Source of the DNA: Petrosia ficiformis
Taxonomy: Eukaryota > Porifera > Demospongiae > Haplosclerida > Petrosiidae
Direction of reading: 5' to 3'
NCBI GenBank assembly: GCA_947044365.1
Contig: OX345642.1
Span: forward strand, 4,463,598 to 4,527,597
DNA: 64,000 bases
This document shows positions 10,349-35,100 of the stretch, in pieces. The notes under the pieces were generated by a model. That model was not told the origin of the DNA. It saw only the letters and a list, made by a program, of their open reading frames with translations, and made no database searches. The translations under genes and the position numbers were made by a program. Within the stretch, counting starts at the first letter, position 1, and each line of letters begins with the position of its first letter.

Positions 10349-13300
10349 ATGATTATGGATGATCGAGACCAGTACGGTCATCCACGAATACCACACCGTG
10401 GTTATTATGAGAAACAATATTGCGATGAAAGAAGGAGATGGGCAGAAAAGTTCTGTACCTGCGAACTCAAACATGTTGGACAATGGTGGAGAGATGAAGG
10501 TAGGTTTTATAATTGCACATTGCAATTGATCCAAATTAGTGTTGTTTTAGTTAACTATAACAAAAAAACCTCTTTTAATAAGGTATTGTGACTTTTAGTT
10601 AACTAAACTATAACTAAATTACAAGTCTACTGTAATAACTATAACTATCTAAAATGAAAATTAGCTAATAATGGCACATTAGTTAAGGTGGTACTAGGGA
10701 GTGGGCGGATGCGACTCCAATCAGTTTCAAAATAGAATATTATATAATATGACTCTAACCTGGTGTAATGGCAACCTTCATATCTTCTAATCACCTTTAT
10801 AGGGTCCTGGAAGTGATAAAACATATATAAAATGTCCATTTTTGTAATCGCAATAAGTACAAAACGGAGAAAGCCACGCCCACCAATCATGGCATGCACC
10901 AAGTACAATGCATTTAGAGAAAACAAATAGAGCCGTTTTCTGGAAATTCATTTTACTTTTATAGTTACAAGAGGCTGAAGAAAGCTGAATTCTGTAGCTT
11001 TTCACTGAAACCATAAAATCTACCTTTCTAGGCACTATCAAACTCCGATCTTTCTCAGAGAGCAACTACAGTTACCCGCCATTGTTTCCCACCCACCGCC
11101 CCCTCCACCACCCGTGGGGCGTGTTTAGGTTTGTTTCTGAAAATAAACTATCTGAAAATAAACTATCAGTCAAAACATTTAGGCCCAATAATTATACCCC
11201 CGGGTGGGTGTGGCTTCCAAAAAATACAGAATGGAACCAGATTGTATGCAGCAAGAAGCTTGCAAGACTAGAAACTGATTGGAGTAGCATCCGCCCACGG
11301 AAAAGACTACAACCTTAATTAACACCCCTTTTAGTAAGCCAAAAATTATTTTAGTTAATCTATAACTAAACAAAAATTAGGATAAAAAAGACATACTATA
11401 AATACAACTAAAAGAGGTTATTATTGTTATACTAAAACAACAGATTGCTATTCAGATAATTATCATTACTAATGAGTGTACTAGTTTCCTACCATAATTT
11501 AATCATATGATGGGATTAGTTGCTGAAGCAGCAACTTGCTATGATGTGCTATTTAAAGAAGGGAATTTATGGAGTTTTACTTGGTAAAGGCCAAAGTTTA
11601 GAAAATTATTGTTTGCCTTAATTTAATTAAGACTGTGGCTAGGATCCTGTCAAGACTGTGACAAAAGTCCTGGCAAGACTGCTAGAATCCGAGCAAGAAT
11701 GTAGCTAGAGACCTAGCAACGTGACCAGCATATTATCTGTTAGAGTAAATAGAGTCCCAGCAACTGGAATTCAGACACAATTCAAAATTAACATCATTAC
11801 TAACCTTAGGAAGTGAACCTATAATAATACTAAAAGGGATGGAGAATATATGCAGCTATCCACATTGGGTGGTTGTTGCGAGCAGCTTGAGAAAAAATAC
11901 AAAACTAAATTTGTTTAGACTGGAACCCTGAGATCCTATGGTTCAGTGAATTTGGTCATTGGCAAGACTCTCAGTAAAAATAAACAAGTCCCATTGCTAC
12001 TTGCCAGGACTCTAGACTCTATGTTTAATTAATCATCTTTGTTCCACCATAGTAATTAATACTTTCAAACGTATTGTCAATGTTGTGTTATCATTAGTAG
12101 CCATCTTGGAGGAGTAAGAGTTGCATATTTGCGGTACAGATAACTTGGCCGTCATTCTCTTTCTGTACCCCAAACTTGACCCCTTTTGCAACACAGAGCA
12201 CTACTTCTAGCAACTTTCTTACTAGGACTCGAATGTCTTCAAGTGCTTCGTAAGAATAAGTGTTCTCCTTCTTTTGACAGCAACTGGGGCAAACAAAACA
12301 GCCCCACCACAAGTTGACACCAGCTACACCCATGATATCAGGTTTTACAGCAAGAGAAATGTCTCATCTACCCAGCAGATTTTGTGGGCAGCATCACTGA
12401 AACCCCAAATTGCAAGGCAGTTGTGCCCCCTTTGAACCCCCATGATAGTGACAGACGAGTTTTTATTGTCCATTACTTAGTTTTATTATCAACTATCTGG
12501 TTTAATGACTAGTTGAAGAGTTATACATGTTCATAATGTTTAGTCCCAAAAACTCCCTTAAAGATGTACTTAATTACAATCCAATAGTGATTATAATAAT
12601 ATTTATGTACATGTAGGTTCTGATGATAGCTGTTCATGCAAAAAGCTAAAAGGCAATATTGAGAATCCAATTGGTCTTGTGAAGGTGCCTGTTGGTAAGT
12701 AGAACATAGATTACATGTACATGAATGTGTTTATGATACTACAGTGCAACTCAAATAAAATTACCAATGCTTCTAAGCCACAGTGTGATGAAGTTATGAA
12801 TGACAAACTTGAAATTGTACTTTCACGGTACTTGATTATACTTATTTGTACAGTAAAACTGAGGTATATATAGTGGAATACTTATATATTGTAGTCATAT
12901 ACTTATAGGTGCAATAAATGACTGCTTAGTGAAGTAAATTGGTACTACCTGTTATATCTCTTGTGTTTGTAAGCACTGTAGTTCTATTAATGCTTTTCAT
13001 AAATGCATGTATATAATATCATGTATTAAGTATGTTTGAGTAAGTAGTGGCTTAGTAATCCATTCAGATATAAGAAAACCATATAGTACATGTATATACA
13101 AGAACATTTCAATAAAAATGGAAGATGATGTAGGGACGTCAAACCCCAAAATTATGTGAACAAGGTTGGGAGGACCCAAATTAAACAAACCACTTCCATA
13201 TAACCCTACATAAGTACTTAAACCGCTATAAAGCAAAATACAAAGAGCTGTACTGATAAGTGTTGAAATGTATGGGTGACCATTTTTTTCCGTGTCATTC

Positions 13301-16300
13301 CTACATGAGAGTACTACCATACTCTCTGATAATGTAGATACTTCAAATGTATACTTTCAGCAACAGTTTTTAGCTCTATGGTGCATTTTTGGTGATGTGA
13401 CATACATGTAACTTGTGATGTAACTGATGATCTCAATCAATTTAAAATGTTGAGTTAATTTCAATGTACTCTAACTTGTGCAAATTATAGTTATTTTCAA
13501 TTTTACTGTATGTTCATGTTTTGATTAATGATTATTATTACTCTGTAGGCTTGGCTGGACCTCTAATAATTCATGGCCATTTTGTAAATGGTTATACTCT
13601 GTGTCCTTTTGCTACCACTGAAGGAGCACTAGTTGCTTCTGCTACTCGTGGTGCAGCCCTCCTGACCAGAACTGGTGGTGTTACTAGTCGTGTTTTAGAA
13701 CAAGTCATGATACGATCACCATCTTTTCATCTTTATTCTGTTGATGATGCCGAAGCGTTATTTAAATGGATTCAAAGAAACAGAGATGCTCTTCAGAAAC
13801 AGATTAAACTCTTTAGTCGCCATGCTCAATTAACTGACGTTCGTCCACATCGATTTGGTTCCATCTTAATAGTGCAGTTTAACTTCCAGACTGGAGAAGC
13901 TGCTGGGCAAAATATGGTTACCATGGCAACCTGGCACTCATGCAAATGGCTAATGAATGTAATAGAAAAAGAGATCCCAACGCTAAAAATTAAAAACTTT
14001 TATATCGAGTCTCTTGCCAGTGGTGATAAGAAAATGGCCTTCTCTAACCTAATGTCAACCAGAGGTGTGCATGCTATAGCTGAAGCCTGGATACCTGAAT
14101 CTGTTATAAGAGACACCCTGAAAGTTAGTTCATATTACATGTACATTCCTCTCAAATTCTTTAAATCACCATATATCTTACTTCTTTAAAAAGAAGCAAG
14201 ATATATGGTGATCATAAATCCTAAATCAACCACATAATGAATGATATTCATAATATTTTGAAAGCATCTTTGTATATTATTATTCCTCTTCTTACCTTCT
14301 AAAGGTTCTTTTAAATTTATAACCTTTGCTTGAGCACATTTTCTTTACATAACACACCATTAATTTATTCACCCCCAGAATAATAAAAGTTACTTAACTA
14401 TATTATATACATGTATAACACACATTGGGTGTGTTCCACATTAACTCCAAATTTAGTACATCCCAATCTTGTTTGCATTCTGACAAATAATTTCTTTTCC
14501 TTGTCCTAAATTCAACTACTTTTCTATATAGACAACTGTGGAAGATCTGTTGAGGACCTACAGAATGATGCAGTTCAGTGCAACCAGAATTGGTTGTTTA
14601 GGATTTAGTATCAATGTTGCTAATATCATTGCAGCTGTATTTACAGCTACTGGACAAGATATTGCATGTATTGGTGAGAGTGCATCTGCTCAGTTTATAT
14701 TAGAACCGGCAAAAGCTGAGGAAATTCAGAAATATCAACAAAGAAGTAAGTCTAGTGTTTCTATGTTATATTTATATGTGTTATATCGATGTATATACTG
14801 TAGTGAAAACTGATACTTATATCTCAGTAGATAATTAATACATGAAGGTGTAACCCTAATATACATATTTATATACAACTATGTTGTTACTTGCTGACTA
14901 TTGTATCAACTAAACGTACATCATTATACTTCATAGCTAAATTTTGCCAAAGCCAAAAGATTTAATTCATCAGCATGCTTGCTATACATGTACATATAAA
15001 TGTATACTTATGAGAATTATAATTGTAATAGATATTTGTTAAAATTTGATTTAATCACAACATGCATCAGAAAAAATCTAATATATGAAGAGAAAATTTT
15101 TCGAGAATTTTAATTATATAGTTATTATATTATGATTTACTTACTCTGAATAACACTGGCTTTGACAAAGATCTAACATTTATCAGAATGAACTGGTACT
15201 TAAGGGAACAACAGAAGAGTATGATAGGCTATCCTGCTAAGATTTAGAGATTAACATAAATACATCACAACATTTGAGAGACTTTTAGTTTTGATACATT
15301 AAATTTTCTATACTTACAACATTCTAGAAAGATTTGCTTATGGTATTTGCATATCTCAGTAGTTCACTTAGTTAGAAAAGGAAGAATCTATGGAGATTTC
15401 ACTAGTTTTGTTACCAGACATCGTATGCTTACAGCTTGACTGATCAAGCAAGGATTTTCATGCTTTGCTAGACATTTAAAATGTTTGCTAATTAAGAACC
15501 ACTCACAGGAGGTAACATTACACTAGTGAAATTAGTGCAATTGTTTCAATAATAACTATTGTTTGATAAAATTACAAACCACTTCCATATAACCCTACAT
15601 GAGTGAGTGTATCAAAGGAACCGCCAGTGCTACATGTCAGATAGAGTATGACAGTTTAGTTATATCAGAGAATATGGTAGTACTCTCTATGTAGGGATGT
15701 CATGGAAAAAAATGGCCGAAAGTATGTGAACAAGGTTGGGAGGTTAACGTAGGTTCCAAAATTAAACAAACCACTTTCATATAACCCTACATAAGTACAG
15801 CTCTTTGTATTTTATAGTGGTGTAAGTACTTATGTAGGGTTATTGGAAATGATTTGTTTAATGTTTGGTCCTACATAACCTTGTTTGCATACTTTTGAGG
15901 TTTTTACGTTCCTACATCTTCATCCATTTTTTTTTGAAAATGTTTTTTATTATTCTTGTCATGGTAGTTTTAGTTATATCTCTTAAGGTTATGGTATAGT
16001 GTTTTGCCCAAGTGGGAGGCACGGGTAAGCCACCTACAGCTGATTACATATCAAAATTGGAACTGCATGCATGCTATTTTTTGCTGTCAGTTTATTCCCT
16101 GGATACCGGAATTCCTGTGTGTTATTTACTTATAGTCAGGTGTGGGCAGGGTGGCTCGAAGAGTTTTCACAGAGACGGCAAATAGTGGCAAAAGAGTGGC
16201 AAAAATCAAAGCTTTTTGTGGTCATGGACTAGTAGAAATGGTGTCTGCAAGAGACAAGTGACTATATCTCTAGTTCTATGGCTCAGAGAACTAAACGCTG

Positions 16301-17519
16301 TTCGAGTCGCCCTCAAGTAAGTCCAAAAGTAGTCGGAAATGGTGAAATAGAAGCACTGTTGGTGGCTAGATTTGATGCAGAAGATCTGGCAGATGAGAGA
16401 TCGACCTCAGTGGCTCAGTATAAGACAGCAAGAAACAAGCGCCAAAGAAATCGGGACTTTTTACAGTAAACTTTTCATTGTTTGTTATACAGTTTTATAA
16501 AGAAACTGCAGTTTTTGATAAAAGTATCTCATGAATAATTAATGACAAAGTGAAACCAAAATGAATTTTAAGCAGGGTTATATGGTTTAATAAAGCAAAT
16601 ACACCCACTTAACATAAACAAATTAGTAACTTTAGCCTCGGGCTCAGTTACTGTAAATCTGATACAGCCTGCCTAGAAGTGTTATAATTATATATGATAG
16701 AAGTATGAAGTATTTAGCCTCTATTATAGTGTAAGTATAGGGATGTTTATAATAGCAGCCTCAGTATTGGTGTTGTCTGTTTTGTCCTGGAAATCTAATA
16801 ACATCAAACAAGAAACCCCTTTGCCATCTTAAGCTTTCTTCACATGTACACAAATAAACATTAAATGAAATATATGAATACCCAAATCAATTGTGTTCGA
16901 ATGTTTTGATATTTTTTTTTAGTATCTGTATATATATTATACATGTATAATTATACATATATTATATTATTAGTATGTATGTAATGCACAACTATACATA
17001 CATGTAACACTGATGAATGGGATGATATGATGTACATATATACATATACTAGGAATACGTATGCGCAGGACTGCCTCGCTCACACTAAACTGTAGGTGTG
17101 GTCAATTATCCAGAAAGGTGAGGTTTTAGTCACACAGGTATATTTTCCTTTACACTTATAATGGCTGGAAAGAAAAAAGAATTTAGTTACTTGTTATCTT
17201 GTGAACTTTGCAATTATGCTAACATACATGGGATTGTCTTGCCTCTCATTCACTCTCATCTAGATCTCGCTGTTTCTGTTCTCTACCTCTTAATTTCTCC
17301 TCTGTCTTGGCCTCTTCTGTAGCTCCCGCTCTTTGCTTCCTTTTTTTCAGTGTAGCTAGGTGTCGAAGCAACGAAGGCATGCTGTAGGTCCCTCACTCGT
17401 CTCTACATTAGAGCAGTAAGCCACACAGTCAACTAATTAACGTACCTGTGGTTGTATGTTTAATTATTGCATTCCTGAGTGTGACAGAACCACATATATA
17501 AATATATATATATATATAT

Positions 17520-17550
<31 letters not shown>

Positions 17551-20500
17551 CAAACTAAGGTCGAGATTTCACTACACTCCCGGATTAGTTGCCTCGCACT
17601 AAGGTGCCCGGCAATTAAGTTGCAGATGTATGCATACCTAGTAATTACATGTAACTGCTTTTACATTGACTAACACTTATTATAAATATGATTTAAATAA
17701 AAATTAATAACGATAATAACAATTTCTTTTTTACAGTCTCTTTTGAACCAAACTCTGTTTCAGCTCTTCAAGAAAGTCGTAATGAAGATGGTGTATATGC
17801 ATGTATGGTTCTTCCTAGTCTGGTTCTTGGTAGCATTGGTGGAGGAACATCTCTTGCTACACAAAAAGAATGTTTACAACTTATGGGATGTCACGGAATG
17901 GTATGTATACATGTAGATAGATAAGTATATATTTCCATTACACACAACACTTTTGTACTTCAAATTTAATTTCCACAACCATATTTTACTTAATAAATGT
18001 TGCAAAAATCAAAGCTATACAGTTAGATATAATATTCAATCTTACATGTAACTGTGCCTCCATGCTTCTCCTGGCAGTATCATAGCATGATTTTAGTATC
18101 TACCTCTATCCTGAAAGTTCTTCGCTCCAGCTAAGCAAGTTTAATCATTAAAAAATATAAATATGCATATTGAGTTGATGCAAGGAGTATCCACCCACAC
18201 ATGATATTCAAGAATAATTTCAGCCACAAAGAAAGTAGTGGTGTTGAAAAAAAATTTGTGAAGTATGTACATGTACTTTATGGTGCTAGCTACTGGAAAG
18301 CCTGTATTTAGGATTGTTGTGCACAGTACAATAAATCACATGTTAACCCTCAATTTACATATATAGCACAGTTTTTGATACAATTTGAAGCATGGGCCAA
18401 ATTGGCTCAACAATAGTTAGTGTGTATGCCATTGGGAAGACATCTTGAGCTAATTAACAAAGCGTTAATGCTGTTAGTGACAATATAGTCATAATTAACT
18501 GTCCCATCTGGCAAAAAAGGTGAGAACTTTGCAGTGCAAATTAACAAGCTCTTTAGGCCAATGGTACACCATATGAGCTTATCAAAAACACTGATATATA
18601 AACAGCCGAGTGCTATTGTAATCATTTGTGTGTTTGTCTGTGTGTTTGTTACTATGTTGTTAGCAATTGAAAACATTGATGTTTCAAACAAGCTTCTATA
18701 CCACAAGAATAAAATTGAACTATATATTGGTTTGCTACTTGATAGGTACAGTTTCAAGCACATTATAATTAAATTGATCATACAGGTTTTTATGACTGCA
18801 TAATCATTTATTTAAAGCTCTATATTGTCATATAAGGTTTGGAAACCTATGCAATCACTTGCATGTGTAATTAAAACATTAGACAGGATAAGCAAATAGA
18901 AGTGTAGGTAATGGATTTTTATTTTTCAGTCATAACCTGTATTTACAAGTATGACCAATTAAATTGCATTCAAGCCATTGTACATGTACTAGCCAATACA
19001 TTAGACAATTCAATTTTTGTTGCAAGTACTCAGTGTACTTTACCACAAGTGTAGCTACCTCTCATGTAGTCTACAAAACACACTCAACTAGGGAATGCTT
19101 GCATGTATGCAATCATTGTAGGGTGAGCCTGAGAAGGTGTGATTAGAATAACTAAATTTTTGACACTGAGCAAGTTTAGTGAGTTTGAGATGGAATAAGA
19201 GCAAAATGCAACAGTTCATTGGTTGGTTTTAGAGGTATCCCCTGTTAAATAAAGTAGGAATAATCCCGATGTTAAATACTTTATTGGAAAACATCTCAGA
19301 TGCCAAGGTGCTCAAAATTTCAGTCTATTTTAGACAAATGAAGCTTATCTTCTCTTGGACAGTCGTGTTTTGCTCTTCTCTTCAGTCTCTGCAGCTCGTT
19401 TAGCTCTTTCCCACTCTCTTGTTTTTCTCAATCTTCCATGTGCAGAGTAAGAAATTGAAATTCAGTCACAATTTAATAGAACATACGAAATCACATACGA
19501 TACATACATTATATACAGTGGTTTAATAGAACATATGGAATCACATACGATACATAAATTATATACAGTGGTTTAATAGAACATATGGAATCACGTATGC
19601 TTCACTAACTTCCTATTGTGGGGCTCGCTCAGGCTCACCCAAATAAATTATCAGTGATAATCTGGTTACAGATGAATTGTGGTCTGTGTAGTCATTTGTA
19701 ACCACATAGCTTACTATGAGTTATAAAAATTTTCATAACTTCATAACTGATATGTTAGGAAAGGCTTATCATTTTCTTTTTTGAAGTCTGCAAGCATTTG
19801 AAGTCCCAATGTTCCTACTTTTTGCAGAAATTGTAGTGATACATAGACAGACATATACTGGGTACATTACAGATAACAGTAACCCTCAGCTCCAACTAGA
19901 TGGCTAAGTGCTAATTTATGTTTGACTTCAGAAATATTATCACTTCCACTGTTCCACAGACTATTAATGTTTAGCACTTTCCTCATTGTCAGGTTATAAA
20001 TGTCACAAAATGTAGTTCCTATAGTACTGTTATCAGAAGTGTTGATAGTAATTAAACTCATGTTGTGTCTTAAGTAATTGTGTTGCTCCAGTATTAGTAT
20101 TTATTTGCGATGTGGTTTCAAAATCAAGTAAATTCAATTTTGATATATCACATATAGAATAGTGTTGCTCGACTTGGTGAGATCATTGCAGGATTTGCAT
20201 TGGGTTTAGACCTGTCTACACTGGGAGCTATTTCTAATGGAACATTTGCAGCATCACATGAAAAACTTGGCAGAAACCGACCAGAGAATGGTCTCAAAGA
20301 GGAACATCTTAATAGAGAATTCTTTGAACATGTTGTTGGAGAGAAGGGAACTCTTATAAGCTGGGAACCATTTAATGTAAGTCAATACCAGACAAGAGAA
20401 TTATATGCATAATTATGTGCTGATTTTGATTATGTACTCACTTGCAATAACTGTCCATGTATTACTAGTTAGTGTATCTTCAATTCTTGTATATATGTAC

Positions 20501-21908
20501 ATGTATATCTATTACTAAACCTACTAAACATTTTATATCCAGCTGTCGCAATGTGTTTGTATTTAGCTTTTTACCCTATGCACTATGCTGTGCAAGGGGT
20601 TAAGCGATTGGTTCTGTCTGTCCGTCTGTCTGTTATGCAATAAGAAATTGGAATCAAACTTTAGACTGCTTTAAACATCTTACAAACACATCAGCTAGAA
20701 TATAGTCATATAATAAAGTATGCATACCTTGCAGAAGCTAATGCAGTTCACAGTATTTGCAATTCCTGAGTTTCCTTATTATCAGTTTAGAAAAGTCCAC
20801 TACATTGTATGTTGTCCGGTCAGTCACGCCCTTTATAATAATTATTTATAGCAACTGTTGAGCCTATTCAAGAAACTAAAGATATTCTTCAATGACTCAG
20901 CTAACATTATGCATTATTGTATGGGGTATGTTTCTAAGAACATCTAGGTTTTAATATCTTAAATTGGGAATATTTCGTGTCGAAAATATTTAAAATTTTT
21001 ATTTTTCGTATGTATAAATTTTCGTACATGCATGTTATTATTTACGAATACCGTTTATTTCCAAATACCCATTAATTTTCGAATTTTTAAATTTCGTACG
21101 CATAAGTATATACTAAAATTTTTGTAGTACGAAATTTTCCCGAATTACGGTAAGAAATACAATTACATTGTGTGAGTTTATACACTATTGAAATAAACAA
21201 TTAAGTGTGTGGGATTTGTCAGAAAGTTCAACATGGCTCTAAACCTGAAATACAAGTTGTGTAGTAAATGCATACATCTGGATGTATAAATCATTTTAAT
21301 ATATATAGTATATACATGCTTAGTCTGTTACTACATTGTTGCTACATGTTGAGATATTAGAAGTTATAAAACATTTCAGTTTCTTGGTATTTGAATGTAC
21401 ATAATTATGGTATATAGTAATTATCACACACATACAATTAAATGACACACAATAATGCCAGTATATAAAATTTGAGTGTGCACACGCTCCACTTTGCTGA
21501 AATGGAATTCCACACACTTGCCAAAGGGTTATCACACATACATTTAATACACAGTAATTATGATTTGTTTTCTTCATTATGATTCATGTTATTAGGTGAA
21601 CACAGGTAATAGTATAATATCTGAACTCACAAAGGCAGAGATTGTGAAGAAAGTTGGTCATTTTGGTATCACTGTTCATTACAAGGATATTAAAGGTATC
21701 AAACATTATTATTATTACACAGAACAGTTTAACAAACAATCCATGCATACAGCTTGTATATGTAAAATATACATAATGATAGTGTTACACCAATATTTCA
21801 GTAGTCAATAACACATGACTTTAGATACCATATAACTGTTTTTTCCAAGACATAAAATCTTGCAGTTACAAAATACTATCAAAATATACATGATAATACT
21901 GAGATGAG

Positions 21909-21939
<31 letters not shown>

Positions 21940-22198
21940 CACCTGAGGCAAATGAAAAATGAAAAAATGAGTTGCCTCAGGTGGGATTCGAACCCACGAC
22001 ACTCTGCACTCCGGACAGATGCTCTTACCAACTGAGCTACCAAGGCAGCTCAGCTGGCAGGGTCCAAATCAAACATCTCACTCATACACCTGTGTGAACA
22101 GGCTAACTAAACCGGTATACAAGCGAAGGCTGGGGTAATTAAACCACCAAGACGCCAAACACTAAACCTAAGTATATACATGATAATACTGAGATGAG

Positions 22199-22229
<31 letters not shown>

Positions 22230-25200
22230 CACCTGAGGCAAATGAAAAATGAAAAAATGAGTTGCCTCAGGTGGGATTCGAACCCACGACACTCTGCACT
22301 CCGGACAGATGCTCTTACCAACTGAGCTACCAAGGCAGCTCAGCTGGCAGGGTCCAAATCAAACATCTCACTCATACACCTGTGTGAACAGGCTAACTAA
22401 ACCGGTATACAATGTACATGTAATTATATGTACATGTATACCATGATAGTATTTGTAATTACATGTACATGTAACATCTCATTTCTTTAATAAATGGATA
22501 TGGTTCTGAGAAATTTTGTGAAAGAAAGAGCATTTTTGTTTTAATTTAATGGGTGTTGTCTTCATGTTAATTGCTAATTGTATGATGAAATGTAATAATG
22601 AAAAGGCTTGAGTGGCTTGGTAGTATTATTTTTTTTTGTAATTCACCAACTAAAATTATGATTCAAGCAATTTTTGTTATTGCCAAACATTTTGGTAACT
22701 ATGTAGTCACATGTAACTTCATCAGTGACATATAATAATAGCAAACTCTGTTTTATTATATGTCACTGATAAAGGTAAATGCATTATCACCTGAACAATT
22801 TGAAATACAAAAGTTTCTTTGGAACATATTTTGGTTTGTGATAAACAGACATGAGAGAATTACTAACAAAGGAAAACTGAAATAGTCAGGAATCAAACTC
22901 AGGATCAAACTCAGGACTTTCTAATATTTAGTCAGGCATTTCTTATCATCTGAACCACCAGACTTCTTGATAGCAGAGGAGTGTAGGATTGTACTAATCC
23001 CAAAGGTAGCTTAAAACCCAGCTGTTTCTGACTATCTCAAAGACCTAGCTGGCTTACGCTGACAAATAGTATACTAGAAAATTATGTTATTAGTACATTT
23101 ATTACAATATTCATTACTATTATCTACTAATAAGACTAATAAAAATAACATAGAAATTCAATTAATATTGGGAAAAGTATAGGGAATGATACATAGTAAG
23201 TTATATGTTAAGAGAAGTGGCTTAACAAACCAGATATAGTGAACTGAATTCCATGTTTTAAATACAAATTATGATGCACCAGTAAAAATGTTTGTTTGAA
23301 ACTCCTTTGGTTCAGTTGGTTGGTAAAGAGAAAGAGCACTTACAGGTTTCCATTATTAAACCTTACAGCATATAATAATTACATGTACACCAGTGTTTTT
23401 GATAAGCTCATATGGCGCACCATTGGCCCAAAGAGCATCTTATTTAGCACTGCACAGTTCTCTCTTTGGGCTAGTGGCACAGTTAATTATGAGTATTTTG
23501 TCAGTAACAGCATTAACTCTTAGTTAATTGGCTCAAGATGTGTTCTCAATGGCGCACACACTAACCATTTTTGAGCCAATTTGGCCCAAGCTTTAAAAGT
23601 TATCAAAAACTCTGCTGTACACATATAGTAACTTAGTAAGGCATTTTTTTGAAAGCTGTCTTTTTCAAATAAGCTTCACGTTGGAAGTTTTAATGTGATG
23701 CACACATGGTATTGAGTTTGTCTTTCATAGTATTATGCCTTTTTTTAATTAGGTCATAATCCTTTCATTTTTATTAATACCTATGTACCAAGATATATAA
23801 TGTATAAACTCTTATGATTTGACCAGATTCCAGTGTCTTAAGATCAGTGTTTCGTTTCATTAAAACCATTTCTCCTTCTTTCTTTACAGGTCAGATATGT
23901 GTTATGAAGGTAGTGATAAAGTCAAAACCCACTGATGTAGAGACATGTAACATGATAAACAAAATGGCTCTTGGATGTGGATTCACTCTAGCTTCAATTT
24001 ATGAAAGGAACAAAGCAGAGACTGGATTTAGGTACAATGATTATAATCAAGAGAGAAAGTTATTCAATAGGATCAATAGTGGAGTACACAATCATACATG
24101 ACCCACTGTTCAAAATAATGTCCAGCAATTGACACCATTTTCTGTACAGTTTCCATCTTTGTTTGGACAAAATTGCATTTATTGTCTGGATAAATTCCCT
24201 GATCAGTTATAAGAATAATACAACAAAATAAGCACAATAACTTCACAGTGACATTAATTTTCAGTGAAAAGCAGTCATAACCTTTTGTGTTATCTTTATG
24301 TCTTATAAAGTTATAAGCCATAAATAAGTGCAATGCTGGTTTGTGAGACAACTTGCTTGTCAAATATTGTTTTGTCCAGAATTTTCTGCTGGACACTTTC
24401 AGCTATTTCGAGAACTGCATGAGCTAAAATGTGTATTGTACCATTTGTATCTATAATTATATATATATGTATGTATATGTGCATTGCACTATACTCTACT
24501 TTACTGTGTGATTACACAACCGTATTATCATACAAAGATACTTGTACCTTACAGTTAATTAGCTGTACTTATTGTCCACCAGTGCATGGTTTAAATGTTA
24601 AAACATCATTTAACGAAATCCTTATAGTTTTCGTGATATCATTAGCAGAACAACCAATTGAGTATTTTTCTTTCTCTGAGACCTAACCACAATATTGCCT
24701 GTAGTTTGTAATTGTTTCATTTAACAATCCTGTTTACAATAAAATATTACATGTACGTACATGTACATGTACATGTGTGTCATATACAGAATGTTGATTT
24801 TGCATTGTAATGAATATCAAATTAAGTCCCAGTATTAGGTACTCTGCCATTTTGCAATGTAGTATACAATTTATGAATTCTGTATTACTCTTCAACTTCA
24901 CCAAATCAGGTCATCAATAAGCAATGAAATGCCTGTACTATTAATGAACTATAGAATATATGTAGTAAATTAGAATCTTATTAAATTCCTGTAAAATATT
25001 GTGAGTATAATTATTTACATTGAGTATTAAAACACTTGGTAATCTACTTAATTATATTTACAGATGCTAGTATTGTTATTATTATTGTTATTATTAAATG
25101 TATTTATTTTTACTACTACTATTACAGAATGTGTCAAGTCAGAGAAGTTGAACTGGCTCGTCTCAATAACCAATATGTAAGGACTTTTTCTCCAGCAGTT

Positions 25201-28200
25201 CATCATACGATACAAAATACAAAAAAGGTACAATGAGATATACAAAATGTATGTCATCTTATATCTCCTATACATTTGCATATAAGACCTGAAATGGATA
25301 CCTGGTTATTCATGATTATAATTATCTGTTGAACAAAACCAAGGATACTTTTATAAACTTCTATAGGAGTTCTTTACAACAAAAAATTATGTAAAAATTA
25401 ACTTCAAATGAGCCACAAATGTTTGTTTGATTAAAACAATTATTCAGGTACACAACTGTTGTTGGTGAACAAATATCCAGATAGTGAAAGACAGGATCTA
25501 TTCCAATCCTAATACATACATACGCAATGTCATACATACCTTATACCACATACAATTGACACACACTTGCACACACCCACATACGCAGACACACACTTGC
25601 ACACACTTGCAAACACATACTAAAACACACTCTTGCAAACATACCCACGAATATGTATAAGTATGAATAATTTACTTTTTATCCAAGGATATTCATGTAA
25701 TAGTAATGGACTTTATTGATGAAAAACAATTCACACACTTTAATACTGTTCATGATATTTCAGTTTGGAGAGAGGATGATATGAAGGTAATATCTATTAT
25801 ACCACAAATAAACTGTACATAAGTATTATTAATTATTATCTATCACTATGTTAGTTACTGCAATGATGTAATTGAAAAATAACAACTGAGCTAATCCCTG
25901 TGGTAGTTTGAGCAACGGAAATAGTCCTGTCTGAGATTTTATTCTGTTTATACAAGTGTTTTCACAATTCATTAGCAATGAAATATGAATTTAGGTGGTG
26001 CATTTTAACAAATTCTTATTGTGACAATTTGAAACATTCTATAACAAGTTTGTAACGTATTTAAAAATGTCTTTTTTTTTGTCTCCAATAGTTTGTCAGA
26101 TAACCCTTTTGTCTCATTTTGTGATTATAAATATGAGCATATTTCAAAGGACAGTTGTTCATCCTTTATAATCATTTCATCAGAAGAGCTCATTTGTGCT
26201 AAGATATACATGTACATGTGTGTCAGCATTAGTTGTATCATATAGGCTCATTGCTAGGTAGTGTTGTAATATTATGGTAGTGTTTTCAGTAGATATATAA
26301 TTCTTAGTCCACATTAACGAGGTATAATTATTTACTTTTCCCATATTAGTATATCATTTCTGTTCATCTAGCTGCTGTAATTAGTATCATGTTAATTGTA
26401 GGAATGCCAGGTTAAAATGTTAGCTCTAAATGTAGAGTTTGTAGATTTGATGCAGTCTACCAACTTTCTATCACTTTTTACTACTATATGCTAGAGAACA
26501 ATGATCATTAGTAATAGTAACAGTATGTTAACTATACTAATTTACATGTACAAAAGTCACTGAATAAATAACATGTTAGAATGTATCAGATCTTAAATGA
26601 TTATTAATAGATGTCTATGAAGTACCAGTACAGTTTATATAGGGATGTTAATACCTAAAACCACAAAAACAATACTCCCTTCCTGAGTGCTTATGATATT
26701 TAGGTCACTATACTGAACTCTTTACTTTCTTTATAATATAATACACACAGGTGGTATTACGTGATTTAGCTCAAATTCATGCTTCATTTATGGAAAATCA
26801 CAACAAAATTCTAAGCAGTCCTTGGCTAGAAGAAATGGGAAGAGAAAAAATGGTATCTTTACGACCTTTATGGCTGGCTCTCTTACAACATGCTGCTAAT
26901 GAATTCCCGCAATTTTGGAATAAGAAATGGTTAGTCTAATCATTGTTATTACATTTCTTTAAGGCCTTTTTCTGCAGTCTTACTATTATGAGTTAAAATC
27001 CCAATACCTTTGTTTCAATATAAACCACTCATATACTGTATGTGACTATGTGTGTTAGTAAGCGATGGGACGGATTACAGGTTAGGCCACATAAACAAAA
27101 TTCATTGTTTCTCATCCTCTTGTTTACACAATATTAATGCGGAGGGCGGGTATTTACTATTTACATTTTAACACTTTTTATAATTAAAACACCACACAAC
27201 CATACCAAGGTTTTAGAATTTTTATTCCTGACCTTATCTGAACGATTACCAGCACCATGTCAGATATATAGCCTCTGTTTATAACATAGTTGTAAGTGTG
27301 AATACTAACAATATTTACTATATCAATCACCTTTCTCCTCCACTGCTCAGATACGGTGTAGCTAGTGTCACGTGATGCTGTGGTAAGAATCATGTGACCC
27401 CCAATGATAATTGGTGCAGGCGGGGATGAGAAACAATAAATTTAGTTTATGTGGCCTTAGCAATCAAAATGCAAGTGAAAACACATTTTAAACCTGTCTC
27501 ATAGGGCTGTGCAATATTGTCTATTTTGAGAATTGATTAATAGATGAAAAGATACTCCAGTATTACTAGTAATTTACTACATACCAAACAAATAAATACA
27601 CACACCAAATAATAAAACATTTGTGTGTATAAACTATAAATAGACCTTCAAGCACTACTAACAACTACATGTACTATAGTACTAATTATATCCTTAAATC
27701 CTCCCTTTCTGTATAGTGTAATGTTGACTCAATCAACAGTCACTGCATTACATAAATATCAGAGTACGATAGTACTCTCTATGTAGTGATGGCACTGAAA
27801 AACAATGGCCGTCCATACCTTTCAATTGCAGGTCATAAGCTGAAATCTCTGTTAAAATTATAGAGATAAGTTGTAAATTTTTACACGCATGTAATAACTT
27901 AATTTAAATATAAAGATGCCTATTACTTTTTCTTACTTATTGCTACCTTAGATAAATGATATACCACACAATCCTACCATCCTGTGCTTACTAACCAGCC
28001 AGTTGTACATTTTTTTTCTTCTGTGTTCTGAAACTAAATTTTTGCTAGCTTCATGACTTCATTGAGTTAAAAAATAATTTCTGATTTGAGCTGGCATGGT
28101 GGATATAAATTTCTACAAAAATGAAAACATTACAGCTGGCCAGTCCAAATGCACACAGTCAAAAATTGCTGAAAAGCATGGTTATTCCTAAATTAAAAAC

Positions 28201-28515
28201 ATGAATAATATGATATCTATGTAGTAAAACAATACCCACCAATATCCAATTATGTTCACAACAGCAATTATGTTGGGCAATGAGAAACAGCAGAATTGCT
28301 GTATTGGCAGAAATGACAGAAATGGCTATATTACGCATTCAAAGTAGTATAATACTTATACAAACTAGAGAATACAATGAATGCTCTCACAGTGCAGAAC
28401 CCTCACCACAAGTGTGATTGGGAAATAAGAATGACTACTGACAAGAAAATAATTGCAGACTATACTTGATTGTATATAATAATAATAATTATACTGAGAT
28501 TATAAATATTATACT

Positions 28516-28546
<31 letters not shown>

Positions 28547-31418
28547 TACAACTTACACTCCAGTCCTAGCAAGAGTACATAATTCCTAGTGTATATAAGA
28601 AGCACAGTGGTTGAAATCCTTTTTAAAAAAGTTTTGTGCAAATTTGTGGTTTCAATCACATGCATGAAATGAATAGGTGGAGCTAGAAATTGACAGTCAT
28701 GGCAAGGAGCTTAGAGCCAGCTCGATGTTGTAGCAGCCACTACTTCAACTGTACTTGATTTCAAGCTGTGATTCGACAGTGGTAGCCTTCAAACAAGATG
28801 AGTTATGTTTACATGTACTTGTTTGCTACCAGAAGTCTTCTGAAATAGTGAAATGGCAATTTATAAAAATTGTCATAACATTATAACTGAAAAGTTTTAG
28901 AAAAAGGTCTTCTTTTATTTTCATCCTTATGTAATTTCACGTCTTTGGGTAGCTCAATTGAAGTCCCAATGTCTCATGACTACATGTATACATAATTATA
29001 ACATTATTATTGAAAACCATTTCTTTTCCCCACAATTCCACTGTTTCTTCTTTCCCTTTATGTTTTGTGGCCACTGTTTATTAAATGTGTTTGTACATGT
29101 TCCACAATAATTGTGTATTTGTTCATTGAATTGGTATCTTTATAATTGTTAAAATATTCACATTGATAGTCATGTACTGTTTACTATTGCTTTTCTAACC
29201 TTTCACAGGGTAGAAATTATGGAAAATATTGTTGAAAATATTGAAGAACTTTGGACTCCACTACTAGCTGCTCAGAAAACACTTGTACATAATGACTGTA
29301 ACCCTCGTAACCTTTGTCTTCATTTGCCTATATCTACCAGCATCCAGAAGAAATCTTCATCTGTTCCCTTTTCTGATTCACGTATTTTATGTATTTACGA
29401 CTGGGAGCTAAGTAGAGTGGATGTACCACAGCATGATGTTGTTGAGTTTCTTGCATTTGTGCTACCTCCATCAACTAGTATTGATCACAGACTGAGTCTA
29501 ATAGAGTTTTATAGGAAACATTTGGAATATTACAGTGGAATTTCATTTCCAAAAGACAGGTAAAATGAGTGATACATGTACATGTGTAGTATTATTATAC
29601 CTTAAGCAATTTGTTTTGCATTTTTTGAGCTGGAGCGACAGTGAATGTTTAAAAATTCAAATCCAATATCAACGCTGAAAAAACTTAAGTGATGCCATAA
29701 ATATTATAGTACTATTCCTATCACTAATTCCAACAATATGAGTAACCATCACATGGAGATGTAACACATGTGCATAATCAGTGTGTGTGTGACAATGAAT
29801 GGTGTGAGATGTGCTCTCCATGCATAATGATTCTTGTGGTTTAATCAATCCTGTTTTGATTGTGTGTGATGCAGGAGTAATATAAAACAGGACACAAATT
29901 TAAATAAAAACCTGTTTCTCCTACATACAGACTACAGTATGTATTAGTAAAATTCCAGGATAAGTTTGTTTGCCATACTATATACCAGGTTATTTTTATT
30001 TGTATTTAGGTTTTAGAACAAATTTTGGCTAGTGTTTTGTTTCATATTGTCATCTTCATAATTATGCATTTGTAATTTTCCCATGGTGCGGAAGAATTTT
30101 AACTTGTAAAAGAAACTTTCAAACATTTATACCTTGCTATCTATGAATTTCTTAGAAGGTCTTCTGTCTTACTAAGTAGCTAAAAGTCACTGCTATTTAA
30201 AAAGTTCAGAAGTTATACAGGCGAGTAGAAGTTGGCCATAGTCTGACATTGCCACTCCTTCGCATAGAGCCAGTAATGCCAGACGAATAGTCTAAACTGT
30301 AGTAAACTGCTATTGACATAAACAGGTTATTAGATAATGTTGTTATCAATAATTCTTGAGTGATGGATAGAGCAGAGTACTCTGTTATCCACAGAGACTA
30401 GCTGTAATATGATCCTCTGCTACTGATTGTACAACAGAGTACAGACTCAAGTTCTGACAAAAGTGGTGACTAGTCTCACGAGCCAGACTCTCTGTTCCTT
30501 GAAAGAAAATTTGTTATTAAGCAAATTATTATTGGGTGTAGTAAATGAGTCTGGTGAAATGCTTACGTACAGCGATTTTCACTTCACTTGGATCAGTTCC
30601 GTCCCATAACCACACCTCTCTGTTAACATATTTACAGCATGCACGTACATATATAATTGTCTTGCAGAGGGTGTGGTTTACGGATGGAACGAACTGATCT
30701 AAGTGAAGTGAAAATCGCAGTAAGTTGTGCACCAAAACGTATCTATTACTATTCATGATATTCATAACTCGTGGTCACAGGTCTATAGGCTTCATTGACC
30801 ATGAGGGAAATAATTGCTTTTTCCCTTGCAGGCTTCGTTGACCGCGGAGTTATGAATATCATGAATAGTAATAGTATATGTTTTGGTGCACAACTTACCG
30901 ATGACTTGTAAGCATTTCTCTTTCTGTCTCATATCCCCGCCCACTATAGCCACACCTAATAATAATTTGCTTAATCACAACTTTGTTTTCAAGGAACAGA
31001 GTCTGGCTCGCGAGATTATAGATACATAGCCACTCCCCCAATATGTTTTTTGTTCCGCCACCTATGCTAACTACATGTAAAAGTGCCATTTTCCATTTTA
31101 TTTAGTTATAGTTATTACAGTAGACTTGTAATTTAGTTATAGTTTAGTTATACAATGTAGTTATAATTAACCGAATCAACACTACTTATGCATCTCTTTG
31201 TTTCTTTTTTCATAATATCAAATTTCAGATTCTTGGCTGTTTACAATGTAGCTTCTCTTGATTTTGCTGTTAATCGGCTCCTCATGTACACAATGGCTCA
31301 TACGTACAAAGACTACCATTTTCTTCCTCGAGTGGTGAAATCTCATTTTAGTTACATTATTCATGAGATTGAAGCTGGGAATATCAATTTGGACAATCAT
31401 ATGAGGTCTAAACTGTAG
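10349..31418 (+). CDS. Class I HMG-CoA reductase fused to an APH-like kinase, 853 aa, 13 exons
   Basis: Exons: 10349-10499, 12617-12694, 13549-14123, 14532-14745, 17737-17900, 20158-20376, 21596-21695, 23890-24031, 25128-25227, 25688-25786, 26751-26929, 29209-29559, 31229-31418. All junctions are GT-AG and every phase matches; the total is 2562 nt, 853 codons plus TAG. Residues ~20-467 form an HMG-CoA reductase catalytic domain. Residues ~468-853 form an aminoglycoside/choline-phosphotransferase-like kinase. There is no N-terminal membrane region, unlike the usual animal HMGR, so the protein should be cytosolic. HMGR makes mevalonate from HMG-CoA with two NADPH; the kinase substrate is unknown. 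The start could also be the ATG at 10355, or lie in an unseen upstream exon, but the adjacent divergent gene makes that less likely. Introns carry many mobile elements. A prokaryotic origin of the fusion with later intron gain is possible (inference). Confidence 0.88.
10538..11444. mobile_element. Foldback element in intron 1 of the HMGR-kinase gene
   Basis: Outer inverted ends read GTTGTTTTAGT...TATAAC (10540 onward and the complement ending near 11441), with AACCTCTTTTA shared inside both. An inner inverted pair lies at about 10681-10728 and 11271-11325 (GGGCGGATGC...CAATCAGTTTC and its complement). The left end lies 38 bp from the exon 1 donor. The left 120 bp are also found, inverted, at 31090-31184 in intron 12. 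A GC-rich ACCCACCGCCCCCTCCACC stretch lies at 11090. Confidence 0.7.
13097..13345 (-). repeat. Dispersed intronic repeat, copy 1
   Basis: Contains AACAAGGTTGGGAGG, ACCACTTCCATATAACCC and (complement) GAGTATGGTAGTACTCTC. The same blocks recur rearranged at 15577-15945, and a short piece is at 27755-27830. All three copies are in introns of the HMGR-kinase gene, which suggests a non-autonomous element family. Confidence 0.55.
14165..14212. repeat. Short hairpin downstream of exon 3 donor
   Basis: ATCACCATATATCTT and its complement AAGATATATGGTGAT flank CTTCTTTAAAAAGAAG, giving a nearly perfect stem of about 23 bp with a minimal loop. It lies 41 bp inside intron 3 of the HMGR-kinase gene. It could be the relic of a small palindromic element or could affect splicing; nothing decides this. 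Confidence 0.6.
15577..15945. repeat. Dispersed intronic repeat, copy 2, internally inverted
   Basis: Carries TATGTGAACAAGGTTGGGAGG and ACCACTTTCATATAACCCTACATAAGTAC, then the inverted form GTACTTATGTAGGGTTAT. This makes a large imperfect palindrome. Shares blocks with 13097-13345 and 27755-27830. Confidence 0.55.
16278..16469 (+). CDS. Hypothetical 63-aa ORF inside intron 4 of the HMGR-kinase gene
   Basis: Open frame starting MAQRTKRCSS, charged and rich in Arg/Glu/Asp, ending RQRNRDFLQ. Codon use looks more gene-like than the surrounding intron, and a good donor-like GTAAGT lies at codon 14. I recognise no family. It could be a fragment of a mobile-element gene. Low confidence that it is translated. 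Confidence 0.2.
   Translation: MAQRTKRCSSRPQVSPKVVGNGEIEALLVARFDAEDLADERSTSVAQYKTARNKRQRNRDFLQ
18367..18593. mobile_element. hAT-like MITE, copy 2
   Basis: Termini CACAGTTTTTGATA and TATCAAAAACACTG, 227 bp, in intron 5 of the HMGR-kinase gene. Flanking octamers ATATATAG and ATATATAA agree at 7 of 8 positions, consistent with an 8-bp target duplication. Same family as 7139-7356 and 23391-23614. Confidence 0.75.
20955..21152. mobile_element. Palindromic MITE with TACCGTAA-type ends, copy 1
   Basis: Inverted ends read GGGAATATTTCGT...ACGAAATTTTCCCGAATTACGGTA. The interior has ATTTTTCGTATG, TTATTTACGAATA and AATTTCGTACGCATA, many of which pair with each other. A second copy, at 53838-54048, has the complete TACCGTAAATCGGGAA left end. 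Likely a TA-inserting non-autonomous element. Confidence 0.75.
21973..22046 (-). tRNA. tRNA-like gene, copy 1 (anticodon reads GGA by position; doubtful identity)
   Basis: The 74-nt minus-strand sequence folds as a cloverleaf. The acceptor is GCCTTGG with CTGAGGC (two wobble pairs), the D stem is GCTC/GAGC, the anticodon stem is TCTGT/GCAGA with loop CCGGAGT, and the T stem is GTGGG/CCCAC with loop TTCGAAT. A and B boxes are good and a T-run follows (Pol III stop). By position the anticodon is GGA (Ser), but there is no long variable arm and base 33 is C instead of U, so a normal serine tRNA is unlikely. It may be a tRNA-derived repeat or pseudogene. Confidence 0.6.
22263..22336 (-). tRNA. 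tRNA-like gene, copy 2
   Basis: Identical to the copy at 21973-22046, including the C33 and GGA loop, the B box GGTTCGAATCC and the downstream T-run. It arose by the 290-bp tandem duplication. Confidence 0.6.
22880..22970 (-). repeat. Degenerate tRNA-derived SINE head
   Basis: On the minus strand GGTGGTTCAGATGATAAGA resembles an A box and GAGTTTGATCCTGAG a B box, which is duplicated at 22891-22914. No acceptor pairing remains. It lies in intron 7 of the HMGR-kinase gene. Confidence 0.45.
23391..23614 (-). mobile_element. hAT-like MITE, copy 3
   Basis: Starts CAGTGTTTTTGATAA and ends TTATCAAAAACTCTG, inverted relative to the other two copies. The flanks ATGTACAC and CTGTACAC agree at 7 of 8 positions, supporting an 8-bp target duplication of hAT type. 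Confidence 0.75.
27084..27457. mobile_element. MITE-like element with ~34-bp terminal inverted repeats
   Basis: AGGCCACATAAACAAAATTC and TTGTTTCTCATCC at the left end match the complement of GGATGAGAAACAATAAATTTAG and TTTATGTGGCCT at the right end. The roughly 370-bp unit lies in intron 11 of the HMGR-kinase gene. Confidence 0.7.
30474..31184. mobile_element. Multi-arm foldback element in intron 12 of the HMGR-kinase gene
   Basis: Three inverted pairs are seen. The outer pair is at about 30474-30540 and 30950-31020 (GAGCCAGACTCTCTGTTCC and its near complement). The second is at 30570-30606 and 30678-30716 (GATTTTCACTTCACTT...). The third is at 30724-30772 and 30846-30897 (GTGCACCAAAACGTAT, ACTATTCATGATATTCATAA). 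The right end 31090-31184 matches, inverted, the left end of the intron 1 element at 10538. It ends 45 bp before exon 13. Confidence 0.75.
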
Positions 31419-32101
31419 AAACTCTTTATTACAATCTTTTTTTTAATTCACTGTTATATAGTAATAATTTTTTATAGGTTGTTGTGAGTTATTGGTAATC
31501 ATTACTGTGGAAGTTAAAATCAAACATGAGGGCCCATAGCAAGCTGAAAATAAGTAGTCAGGTTTACAAAGTGAGCGACCAACATTTTGGATACGCTATT
31601 CTATTTATGATGTGATGTACTTGACAAACATGTAATCAAATTCCTACAAGCAACAATCTCTGTTTTTTTTTTTTACAACACCCTTAAAAACTAGGAACAG
31701 ATCTTTGCTGTGTTATTGTGTAATATACTAGCATATGAGATTACGTTGATCAGTTCTAGCATAGATTGTATAGACTACTGTAGTCTAACTCAATTGAAGC
31801 TATCACCAGATTCTCACATAGCCAGCCCCTCCTACTCTACAACTACAAGCAGAGTGGGAAGGCTGGCTAGCAAGTTCCTTCTAGCTGTACCCAAAGCATT
31901 GTTATTCCTTATTAATAGTAATAAAAAAAAGATGATTACAGCTATCATTGCATTCCATAAAAAAATTCTGAACTCCTATCTAGTGCTATAAATAACTTTC
32001 TGCACTTGCATAGCAATTTTAATTGTCTCATGATAGCCACACCTACTCCAGAAATTGCCTAACTACTCCTCCACACTAGTAACATACCATTCTTCTCGTC
32101 G
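31419..32101. other. Intergenic, HMGR-kinase 3' end to ankyrin gene start
   Basis: Contains the 3' flank of the HMGR-kinase gene and the short promoter region of the next gene. Only poly-T tracts and a CCAGCCCCTCC(T)ACTCTAC block stand out; that block also occurs at 4000-4020. No coding signal is seen. Confidence 0.5.
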
Positions 32102-35100
32102 ATGATGGAGACGAATTGTTTTAATGCTTTTGTTGATGGTAGAAGTGAAGAAGGTCTCCTTCTATTAAAAGATATAAAAGACCCAACGAAATTAAAGGAC
32201 AGATATGGCAATACTCCATTACACTTTGCTGCTGAACACGGATGGTGTGACGTAGTTGAACTCTTAGTTAATGAATATAAGTTTGATGTCAATAGTAGGA
32301 ATGTTACTAATGAGACTCCAGTACATTGGGCTAGTTTAGCAGGACGTTTAGATGTAGTAAAATATTTTTGTAACACTGGTAAATGTGATTTGTCTGTTAA
32401 GTCTGATTTTGGTCATACTCCGTTGGATGCAGCTCGTTATAATAAACATCAGGAGATAGTTGAATTCATAAATGAAGTATTGATCATAAATTGTAAGTGA
32501 ATTTACATAGATCTTGTATTTGTAAAGAAGCAACATGCCTTTATTTCAGAGATTTATAATGTGTGTGTGTGTGTGTGTTAAATAAATTGTTTGTGTTATA
32601 TACCGCACAGTAGAATTAATAATCATTATTATTACTACTATAATTAATTTCTTCATTGAATTTTGTTTGTGTGTGTGTGTTTAGGGCTTGGATGATTATT
32701 CAATCAATATTCAAACTTCAGATTATTGATTGTATGTCTGATATTAATTATTCCTAAAACATTTTAAGCATGAGACAGCAAGTAATATATGATATAATGG
32801 AAGTGACAGGATGCCTTTTGATCATCAAATGGGAGTTTCCTGCATTAAATGACTTAATTGGCCTAGCCCATTGATTTTGATCAATTACCACTCGATTTGA
32901 AGTTAGTGATGGTTGATTACAGAATCTTAGCTGATTCCCAGCCCTGATTATTATGTGTGTTCATTCTGACAAAGCCATACCCTCAATAAATATGTTGTTA
33001 TCTGTTGTTCTGACAGTTTGTATTATATGTGTATATACAACATAGAACACAGTAGTATTTCTGATACAATAATTGATTTATTAGTGTGTATGGACTAGTC
33101 AGGCAGAGCCTGACCCTAGGCTATGCTAGGCATATTCTGGATTTGTTTCAACTTCTATGGCTTTGGGTGTTATACACATCATTATAACTCGGTTTAAAAA
33201 TATGCTTGTCTGATATTTCATTAATGCTACCAAGGTGTAACCACAACTTTTCTTAATCCATCTACTACAGTGCAATGATTTTCCATATTCAGTTGGTAAT
33301 ACACTAAACACATATTCACCACTAATAAAACTAGCCACATGTTCCTTTGCTCTCGTTTTTTTTGTGGGGTTGAGACGAAGTCTGGTTTATCGACCAAACA
33401 TTTTTGTCATAGCCATTGAGGTGTTAGTATGCAGAATGCAGAGTGAATCTCATTAAGATTCTATGAATATCATTAAAAGAGAGACAGATAGTGAGTGGGG
33501 GAGTAGTTTGTGAAGTAACATTCATGCAATACCACAAAGAAATAATCTTATTTTCGATTTTTCTGTTGGCCCCCAACTGAATATGGAAAGTTTATATGTT
33601 ATTCCTTGCTCCTGAGAGTGTTCGTAGATATTTTGCTTGGAAAAATTAATATTTTACCATTTCCCTCATGATGGATCAAAAGGAGAAATTCTCTAGTATC
33701 GGGAGTAGTTTAGAGTATATATTAAGAGTTTTAGGCCACTATTTTTCTGGATACTGTTAAAGATGTCATGGAAGGCACAAGCTTAGTTCGTATGCATTAG
33801 CCCTGTGTCTCTAGTAAACATTCCACAATAGAGAGACATCCTCTTGCTGAGGGGTGTGGCTTATCTACATACATTGATATTAAATGAATTGCATTTATAC
33901 ATACATACTATTAACCCTTTCAGTGTATGGTTACTATGGTTACTATGGTACTTGTGTTTGATGTGGTTAGGTACATTTTTGCATTTATATCCTGTTGCTA
34001 GGTAGTATTATTGTGGTGCCACCATGTCCTCTGAACCATGCAATATCTGTACTATATCGTGTCTCAAGGCAATATTTTTTTGTAATAAAAAATATGACAA
34101 AATTATAATAAATTTATAACAGGAGCTCATGAGCTTGACCACAAAGTGTAAGAGTAGGAGTGGTAAACAACCATGCATTTAATTAAATTGGTCAAACTAT
34201 CTGTCTGACCGTCTGTTACTATTTTTAGAACCCATATGTATACGCCTTCGTTAAACATGGCGTCTACATCTCAACGATCTCCAAAGTTAGTTATAAAACG
34301 AACACGTCTGGAGGCATAAATGAAGTCACCTACTATCAAGAAAGTAAGAGCATGATTTGAGGAAGCTGAGAAATAACTATTCAAGAGTGTTTGACATCAT
34401 TGCCTTCTGTCATTGAAGTGATTGCAGTGAAGGCTTCCTACTACTTTGTCAATGGCCTCACTAGGAACATCTTCACAGTCTACATGAGCCAGAATAACAC
34501 TCAATTCTATTCTCTGTTATACAGGAAACTTAGTCAATGTAGTATATAGTAGCTTTTCATTTTCTAGAAGCCATATTTAACAAAAGCGTATACACGTGGG
34601 TTCTACAAATAGTAACAGACAGTCAGACAAATAGTTTGACCAATATAATTAAATGTGTTGTTGTTTACCGCTCCCACTCTTACACCTTCTCACTATGGGC
34701 TCCTGATGTAGTATATTACGATTATATCTAACATGATTGGTGTACATCCCAGATATACCACCTGCCTTGTATTCAGAGGTTTATGTAGAATTGTAGATAT
34801 ACCCCTCTGGTTATATTCACACAAACCTCCTCCACAGTAGGTAGTATATCTGGTTTATAAACATCTAAAGAGTCTTAACCATGGTTTATATTTTACTGTT
34901 TTACTTATGACATCGTTAATTTATTTATCATATCTACTACTCATGTACATATGATTTTATACACATGTGATATAATATACTATAATCATTGATTTATAGT
35001 GGCAATGAAAGAAGGAGGTGGGAAAATGAAACCATGTAATGCCATATTACATGGACCACCGGGGGTCGGTAAATCTAGTTTGAAGAGAGTCATTCTAGGA

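Follow-up and report, generated by a model that had tools for sequence, protein, structure and literature searches.

A stretch of 64,000 nucleotides from the sponge Petrosia ficiformis (assembly GCA_947044365.1, contig OX345642.1, positions 4,463,598 to 4,527,597 of the forward strand), referred to here as the window, contains an intron-rich gene in which a domain resembling 3-hydroxy-3-methylglutaryl coenzyme A (HMG-CoA) reductase (HMGR) is fused to a kinase-like domain. The gene was rebuilt from the raw window. Thirteen exons on the plus strand, between positions 10349 and 31418, join into a coding sequence of 2562 nt that forms a single frame of 853 codons and a stop. All 12 introns have GT-AG borders and there is no internal stop codon, in agreement with the preliminary description of the window, which had been made from the sequence alone. 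The 853-residue product gave Pfam matches above the gathering score for HMG-CoA_red (residues 26-433, E 2.2e-93), EcKL (565-780, E 9.1e-10) and APH (570-762, E 9.5e-6). The active-site positions named in the preliminary description (E101, K237/K238, D311 and H428 in the reductase half; H701, D703, N708 and D738 in the kinase half) all lie where it had placed them. The exons are as follows.

10349..10499, +, exon 1: start codon, residues 1-50; 58% identity to the Amphimedon relative P0001
12617..12694, +, exon 2: 77% identity to Amphimedon P0001
13549..14123, +, exon 3: HMGR-like domain; catalytic E101, K237/K238; E230 at the site of human S684
14532..14745, +, exon 4: catalytic D311; N296 at the site of human H752
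17737..17900, +, exon 5: GSIGGGT glycine-rich loop
20158..20376, +, exon 6: catalytic H428; end of the HMGR domain and start of the linker
21596..21695, +, exon 7: linker, then start of the kinase domain
23890..24031, +, exon 8: N-lobe of the kinase; KSKP lysines conserved without exception in 50 relatives
25128..25227, +, exon 9: kinase
25688..25786, +, exon 10: kinase
26751..26929, +, exon 11: kinase
29209..29559, +, exon 12: catalytic loop of the kinase (H701, D703, N708); D738
31229..31418, +, exon 13: C-terminal part, stop codon

The fusion had initially been taken for a curiosity of this animal, which it is not. When the product was searched against 5.8 billion proteins, with scoring of the 7995 candidates that shared the most words, 785 relatives were found at E<=1e-3. 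Among the matches listed, query coverage exceeded 90% in 113 of 120 relatives, and full-length relatives occurred in the sponges Amphimedon and Ephydatia, Capsaspora, a protist, two chytrids and many bacteria. The search for the same domain pair that the preliminary description had proposed thus returned both sponge and bacterial proteins, and a fusion unique to Petrosia ficiformis was ruled out. Both halves are kept in all six eukaryotic relatives aligned. They are also present in P0005, whose name is that of a transcriptome assembly (Colp12, trinity; the source is presumably Syssomonas), so that one mRNA probably carries both halves in that organism. Some bacterial relatives have a third, N-terminal domain in their precomputed Pfam annotation, either DUF3419 (P0022, P0028) or PilZ (P0067, P0089). 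When bacterial and archaeal genomes were scanned, a relative was encoded at 407 loci, and the fusion status was examined in the best 80 of these. The reductase motif lies within a long open frame in all 80 and the kinase loop is in the same frame in 78; the remaining two frames run off contig ends.

The possibility was considered that two adjacent sponge genes had been wrongly merged in the gene model. Every one of the 13 exons can be aligned with Amphimedon P0001, at identities of 45-77%, and the frame is continuous over the join of exons 6 and 7 in each of the nine aligned relatives; a conserved SIxxxL motif lies immediately 3' of the join and a variable stretch just before it. The model is therefore not the product of chance. 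If translation continued past exon 6 into intron 6, it would add 12 residues before a stop, making a short isoform possible, a point in favor of separate genes. However, the continuous frame at the join in relatives, the bacterial loci with both motifs in one open frame and the presence of both halves in P0005 all argue against a merger, which is considered highly improbable. A gene-model artefact was dropped on the evidence of the bacterial loci and the frame continuity, and the fusion claimed earlier is real, since both Pfam domains lie in one frame that is kept across the join in relatives.

The sponge protein is homologous over the full length of both halves to the bacterial HMGR-kinase fusion family. 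In phylogenetic trees, the eukaryotic fusions form a single clade nested among bacterial proteins, within which the Petrosia protein groups with Amphimedon and P0002 and then with Ephydatia (support of at least 99). The bacterial relatives and the trees support the origin that had been suggested for the gene, bacterial with later introns, of which there are 12 in this genome. Conaco et al. (2016; PMC4784904) describe a second HMGR, clustering with prokaryotic sequences, in all demosponges examined, as well as in Capsaspora and some fungi, and propose transfer into the opisthokont ancestor. By that description it is the same gene as the one analyzed here. It was labelled class II and assigned to isoprenoid synthesis, and neither "kinase" nor "phosphotransferase" appears as a word in the main text. 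In contrast, the present analysis finds a fused kinase, a predicted class I fold, a changed HMG site and bacterial lipid-gene neighbors. No description of the HMGR-kinase fusion or of the bacterial operon was found in the open-access full-text literature, and a term search of PMC13342648 did not find HMG-CoA.

The predicted structure of the reductase half, compared with human HMGR (1dqa) and the Methanothermococcus enzyme (6hr7), appears to have a class I HMGR fold. Residue numbers were carried over from the human chain to an alignment of 50 relatives. The catalytic residues E559, K691, D767 and H866 are kept in all 50, and S565 and R568 of the CoA site, K722 of the same site (Lys in 49 and Arg in one) and D653 of the cofactor site are also kept in this alignment. 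The S684 site is occupied by Glu in 45, Asp in four and Ala in one, the H752 site by Asn in 49 and Asp in one, and the M657 site by Gln in all 50. No Lys was found at the K735 site or in the next two columns, and each of the columns beyond these has a single Lys. Among the 80 bacterial loci, the S684 site could be matched in 79 (Glu 66, Asp 11, Cys 1, Asn 1) and the H752 site in 75 (Asn 74, Asp 1). From the human statin-complex structures, we take K735 and S684 to hold the HMG carboxylate, with H752 beside them. The sponge protein thus differs from the two class I enzymes at the S684, K735 and H752 sites; it differs further in its C-terminal kinase and in the lack of a sterol-sensing membrane region, which the preliminary description had correctly noted for the gene model, to which exons upstream of 10349 may belong. 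The NCBIfam cut-offs for HMGR are not reached, TIGR00533 scoring 258.6 bits against a cut-off of 441.8. PF00368 matches in the sponge genome (191 Mb, 29 contigs) are confined to the fusion gene and to a canonical HMGR of contig C10. The latter keeps the motifs SGNYCTDKK, SKNLVGS and NAHAAN and has the HMG-carboxylate-site residues for which the fusion family carries substitutes.

The kinase half, which exceeds the Pfam gathering scores given above, also has the catalytic-loop motif of an APH/EcKL-type kinase. Its predicted fold resembles that of APH and choline kinase, the nearest structures being corramycin phosphotransferase (8agy) and choline kinase (6yxs), although this call was made from the 50 rows listed by VIA-align and other kinase folds may also fit. 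Identity to these enzymes is 11-12%, and here, unlike in those kinases, the domain is fused to a reductase. A sequence search of solved structures with the kinase half of P0001 found no relative up to E 10, and no GHMP-kinase family was among the Pfam and NCBIfam matches at E 0.1. In both halves, the catalytic residues show no variation across the 50 relatives.

In bacteria, the frequent neighbors of the fusion are a dikinase, UbiA, an AMP-binding ligase and phospholipid head-group genes, and these neighborhoods point to a lipid. The dikinase is present in 45 of the 80 loci and UbiA in 41, 36 of which have the dikinase alongside. The neighbors match the UbiA, CarS, archaetidylserine synthase and PSD families and in this respect are similar to archaeal-type phospholipid synthesis, but several of the NCBIfam matches are below cut-off and the likeness is confined to the neighbors and does not extend to the fusion. 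Geranylgeranylglyceryl phosphate synthase, which was not searched for by name, does not appear in the neighbor families listed (25 of 156 and 25 of 63). The gene after UbiA in Nocardia (L041:7464-10127) and Gordonia (L048:6632-9328) encodes a polyketide-synthase-type protein with ketosynthase and thioesterase, which hints at a possible polyketide lipid chain. In actinobacterial loci such as L061 and L062, the fusion is followed by a thymidylate-kinase-like gene. The neighbor set pooled with those loci (60 open reading frames) includes two matches each for KAS III and acyl-CoA dehydrogenase, and the actinobacterial neighbors suggest a secondary-metabolite setting. Another family of the operon has a predicted tandem GNAT fold (L036:15199-16302, modelled, and 14 relatives, such as L010:15149-16276); for the L010 member, Pfam gave no match at E 0.01.

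The metabolic context of the bacterial carriers was examined by choosing 15 loci and searching 14 genomes. HMG-CoA synthase (PF01154) was found above cut-off in one of the 14, that of Actinoplanes sp. TFC3 (49.5 bits). Mevalonate kinase reached its cut-off in none, with weaker matches in six. Control genomes such as that of E. coli also gave weak matches to PF01154 and mevalonate kinase, so weak matches are uninformative. DXR, an enzyme of the methylerythritol phosphate (MEP) pathway, was present in all 14. The fusion is the sole PF00368 protein in 11 genomes; one genome has two fusions and two have an additional HMGR-like protein of about 400 residues. These standalone proteins occur in the gamma proteobacterium HdN1 (L095) and in the Moraxellaceae genome of L010 (L096), neither of which has a PF01154 match. 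In the HdN1 copy, the S684 site is Ala and the His of the H752 site is retained, which makes it a different variant.

The sponge genome was also searched for partners of the fusion. An intact PPDK-type dikinase gene of 23 exons, with the LSHSAVVARELG histidine motif, is located on contig C9:6906648-6913781 (L092, L093). It is unlinked to the fusion, is bacterial-like and is related to the dikinase that neighbors the fusion in bacteria. Its relatives, annotated as rifampicin phosphotransferase-like or PigC, occur in Halichondria, Geodia, Dysidea, Sycon, Oscarella and Corticium. Within the operon set, the L063 dikinase is the best tblastn match to the sponge dikinase. Joint transfer of the fusion and the dikinase from one donor was considered and dropped, because in the wider dikinase tree the eukaryotic proteins lie among Bdellovibrionota-type and unnamed ones and L063 is the only fusion-linked member of that inner group in the data analyzed. 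Two ketosynthase-type rows (L041 and L048) are foreign to this tree and stand at its root on a branch of length 4.31. DUF3419 gave one short match in the sponge genome. In the 64-kb window the fusion is the only operon member found, with no further partners. Elsewhere in the window, intron 7 contains two tRNA-like copies (ARAGORN: Ser, GGA) at 21971-22047 and 22261-22337 (-), 290 bp apart, which read as a near-identical tandem duplication. Open reading frames at 36688-38370 (+), 56937-58967 (-) and 32063-32497 (+) gave a COR-A (Roc-COR) match below cut-off, an F-box and ankyrin repeats.

The best explanation, to which a probability of roughly 0.5 is assigned, is that an HMGR-fold acyl-thioester reductase is fused to a small-molecule kinase of the choline-kinase/APH fold, that eukaryotes owe it to one bacterial acquisition, and that it acts in a reductase-kinase lipid pathway. 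An early opisthokont would have taken up the fusion from bacteria in a single event. The catalytic and CoA-site residues that are retained, together with the changed acyl site, suggest that the reductase half would convert a CoA-bound acid other than HMG-CoA to a primary alcohol with NAD(P)H, and the kinase fold and motifs suggest that the other half would phosphorylate the resulting alcohol. In bacteria, the adjacent PPDK-type dikinase or, in some actinobacteria, the thymidylate-kinase-like protein would add a second phosphate or make some other use of the product. Enzymes of the UbiA, CarS-like/CDP-alcohol transferase or DUF3419 type would then build it into a membrane lipid, and an MMPL system would export the finished lipid. 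Reduction coupled to phosphorylation, as had been proposed in the preliminary description, appears to be the likeliest logic. In the sponge, the fusion probably makes a phosphorylated lipid building block, not cholesterol precursors; that it acts together with the sponge dikinase is a guess.

Several observations weigh against this explanation. The HMG site retains R590, D690 and K692, and HMG-CoA could still be a substrate; the HMG pocket is for this reason regarded as altered rather than erased. The precomputed Pfam annotation of four eukaryotic relatives (P0001, P0003, P0016 and P0090) names the reductase domain alone, from which their kinase half appears to be divergent. None of the tracked neighbors is present in 13 of the 80 bacterial loci. 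Pseudomonadota account for 34 of the 80, and some loci are near-duplicates, the dikinases of L068 and L069 being identical. The usual donors of UbiA enzymes are allylic diphosphates, and the 25 of 156 neighbor families listed include no polyprenyl synthase. In the sponge genome, CarS was not found in a family search, nor were tandem GNAT, UbiA and PSD in weak single-sequence searches. One clade (support of 100) unites the eukaryotic dikinases; Bdellovibrionota-type and unnamed proteins surround it in the tree, and most of the fusion-linked dikinases stand elsewhere. Moreover, the six other sponges with the dikinase are not among the listed bearers of the fusion, and the pair need not cooperate. 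The listing of the fusion may be incomplete, however, because Conaco et al. (PMC4784904) report the second HMGR in every demosponge examined.

Other functions were weighed on the same evidence. The protein may be a true HMGR joined to an APH-fold mevalonate kinase, converting HMG-CoA to mevalonate and mevalonate 5-phosphate and so feeding isoprenoid synthesis. The class I fold, the four catalytic residues, the kept R590, D690 and K692 and the PF01154 match of Actinoplanes sp. TFC3 are in its favor, and the actinobacterial thymidylate-kinase-like neighbor could be a phosphomevalonate kinase, by analogy with the P-loop animal enzyme. An isoprenoid role was also assumed in PMC4784904. However, the S684, K735 and H752 sites are changed family-wide, HMG-CoA synthase is mostly absent from the bacterial carriers while DXR is present in all genomes searched, and the sponge already has a canonical HMGR. 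The mevalonate step of the preliminary description was not borne out on these grounds; it is weakened and not excluded, because HMG-CoA could come from leucine breakdown, and is thought unlikely. A specialized metabolite, the second possibility raised in the preliminary description, is still a candidate.

Also doubtful is a variant of the favored explanation for branched short-chain or prenyl acids, an isoprenoid salvage route independent of the MEP and mevalonate pathways, in which reduction of a 3-methylcrotonyl-, geranyl- or phytenoyl-type CoA would give a prenol and two phosphorylations would turn this into a prenyl diphosphate for UbiA. UbiA and its frequent co-occurrence with the dikinase are consistent with such a route, the AMP-binding ligase could form the CoA ester, and the HMGR fold would fit a small branched acyl group. 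Against it stand the MEP enzyme in every genome searched and the polyketide-synthase-type protein after UbiA in L041 and L048, which suggests a polyketide or fatty chain. A further reading is that the protein catalyzes the degradative reaction or that one of its activities is gone; it might, for instance, be an oxidase of lipid alcohols whose kinase half traps the substrate, or a regulator. The HMGR scores below the NCBIfam cut-offs agree with this, but the invariant catalytic residues of both halves and the retention of both in the six eukaryotic relatives make it very unlikely.

The explanation as a lipid reductase-kinase can be carried further, though only tentatively. In a new enzymatic step, a single protein would perform the "reductive phosphorylation" of a lipid acyl-CoA to the corresponding phospho-alcohol and, with the dikinase, would supply alkyl or prenyl diphosphates outside the MEP and mevalonate pathways for an undescribed ether-type phospholipid of many bacteria. 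Early opisthokonts, sponges included, would have taken over the start of this pathway and would still make a related lipid.

The gene gives a clear example of an ancient bacterium-to-opisthokont transfer; sponges have kept it, and 12 introns now interrupt the copy in this genome. The sponge "second HMG-CoA reductase", which in PMC4784904 is the basis for a suggested extra isoprenoid capacity, probably acts otherwise. If the proposed function is true, the annotation of a bacterial and early-opisthokont family as HMG-CoA reductase or phosphotransferase is mistaken, and a lipid operon conserved in bacteria would become directly testable, since some of its carriers are cultured gammaproteobacteria.
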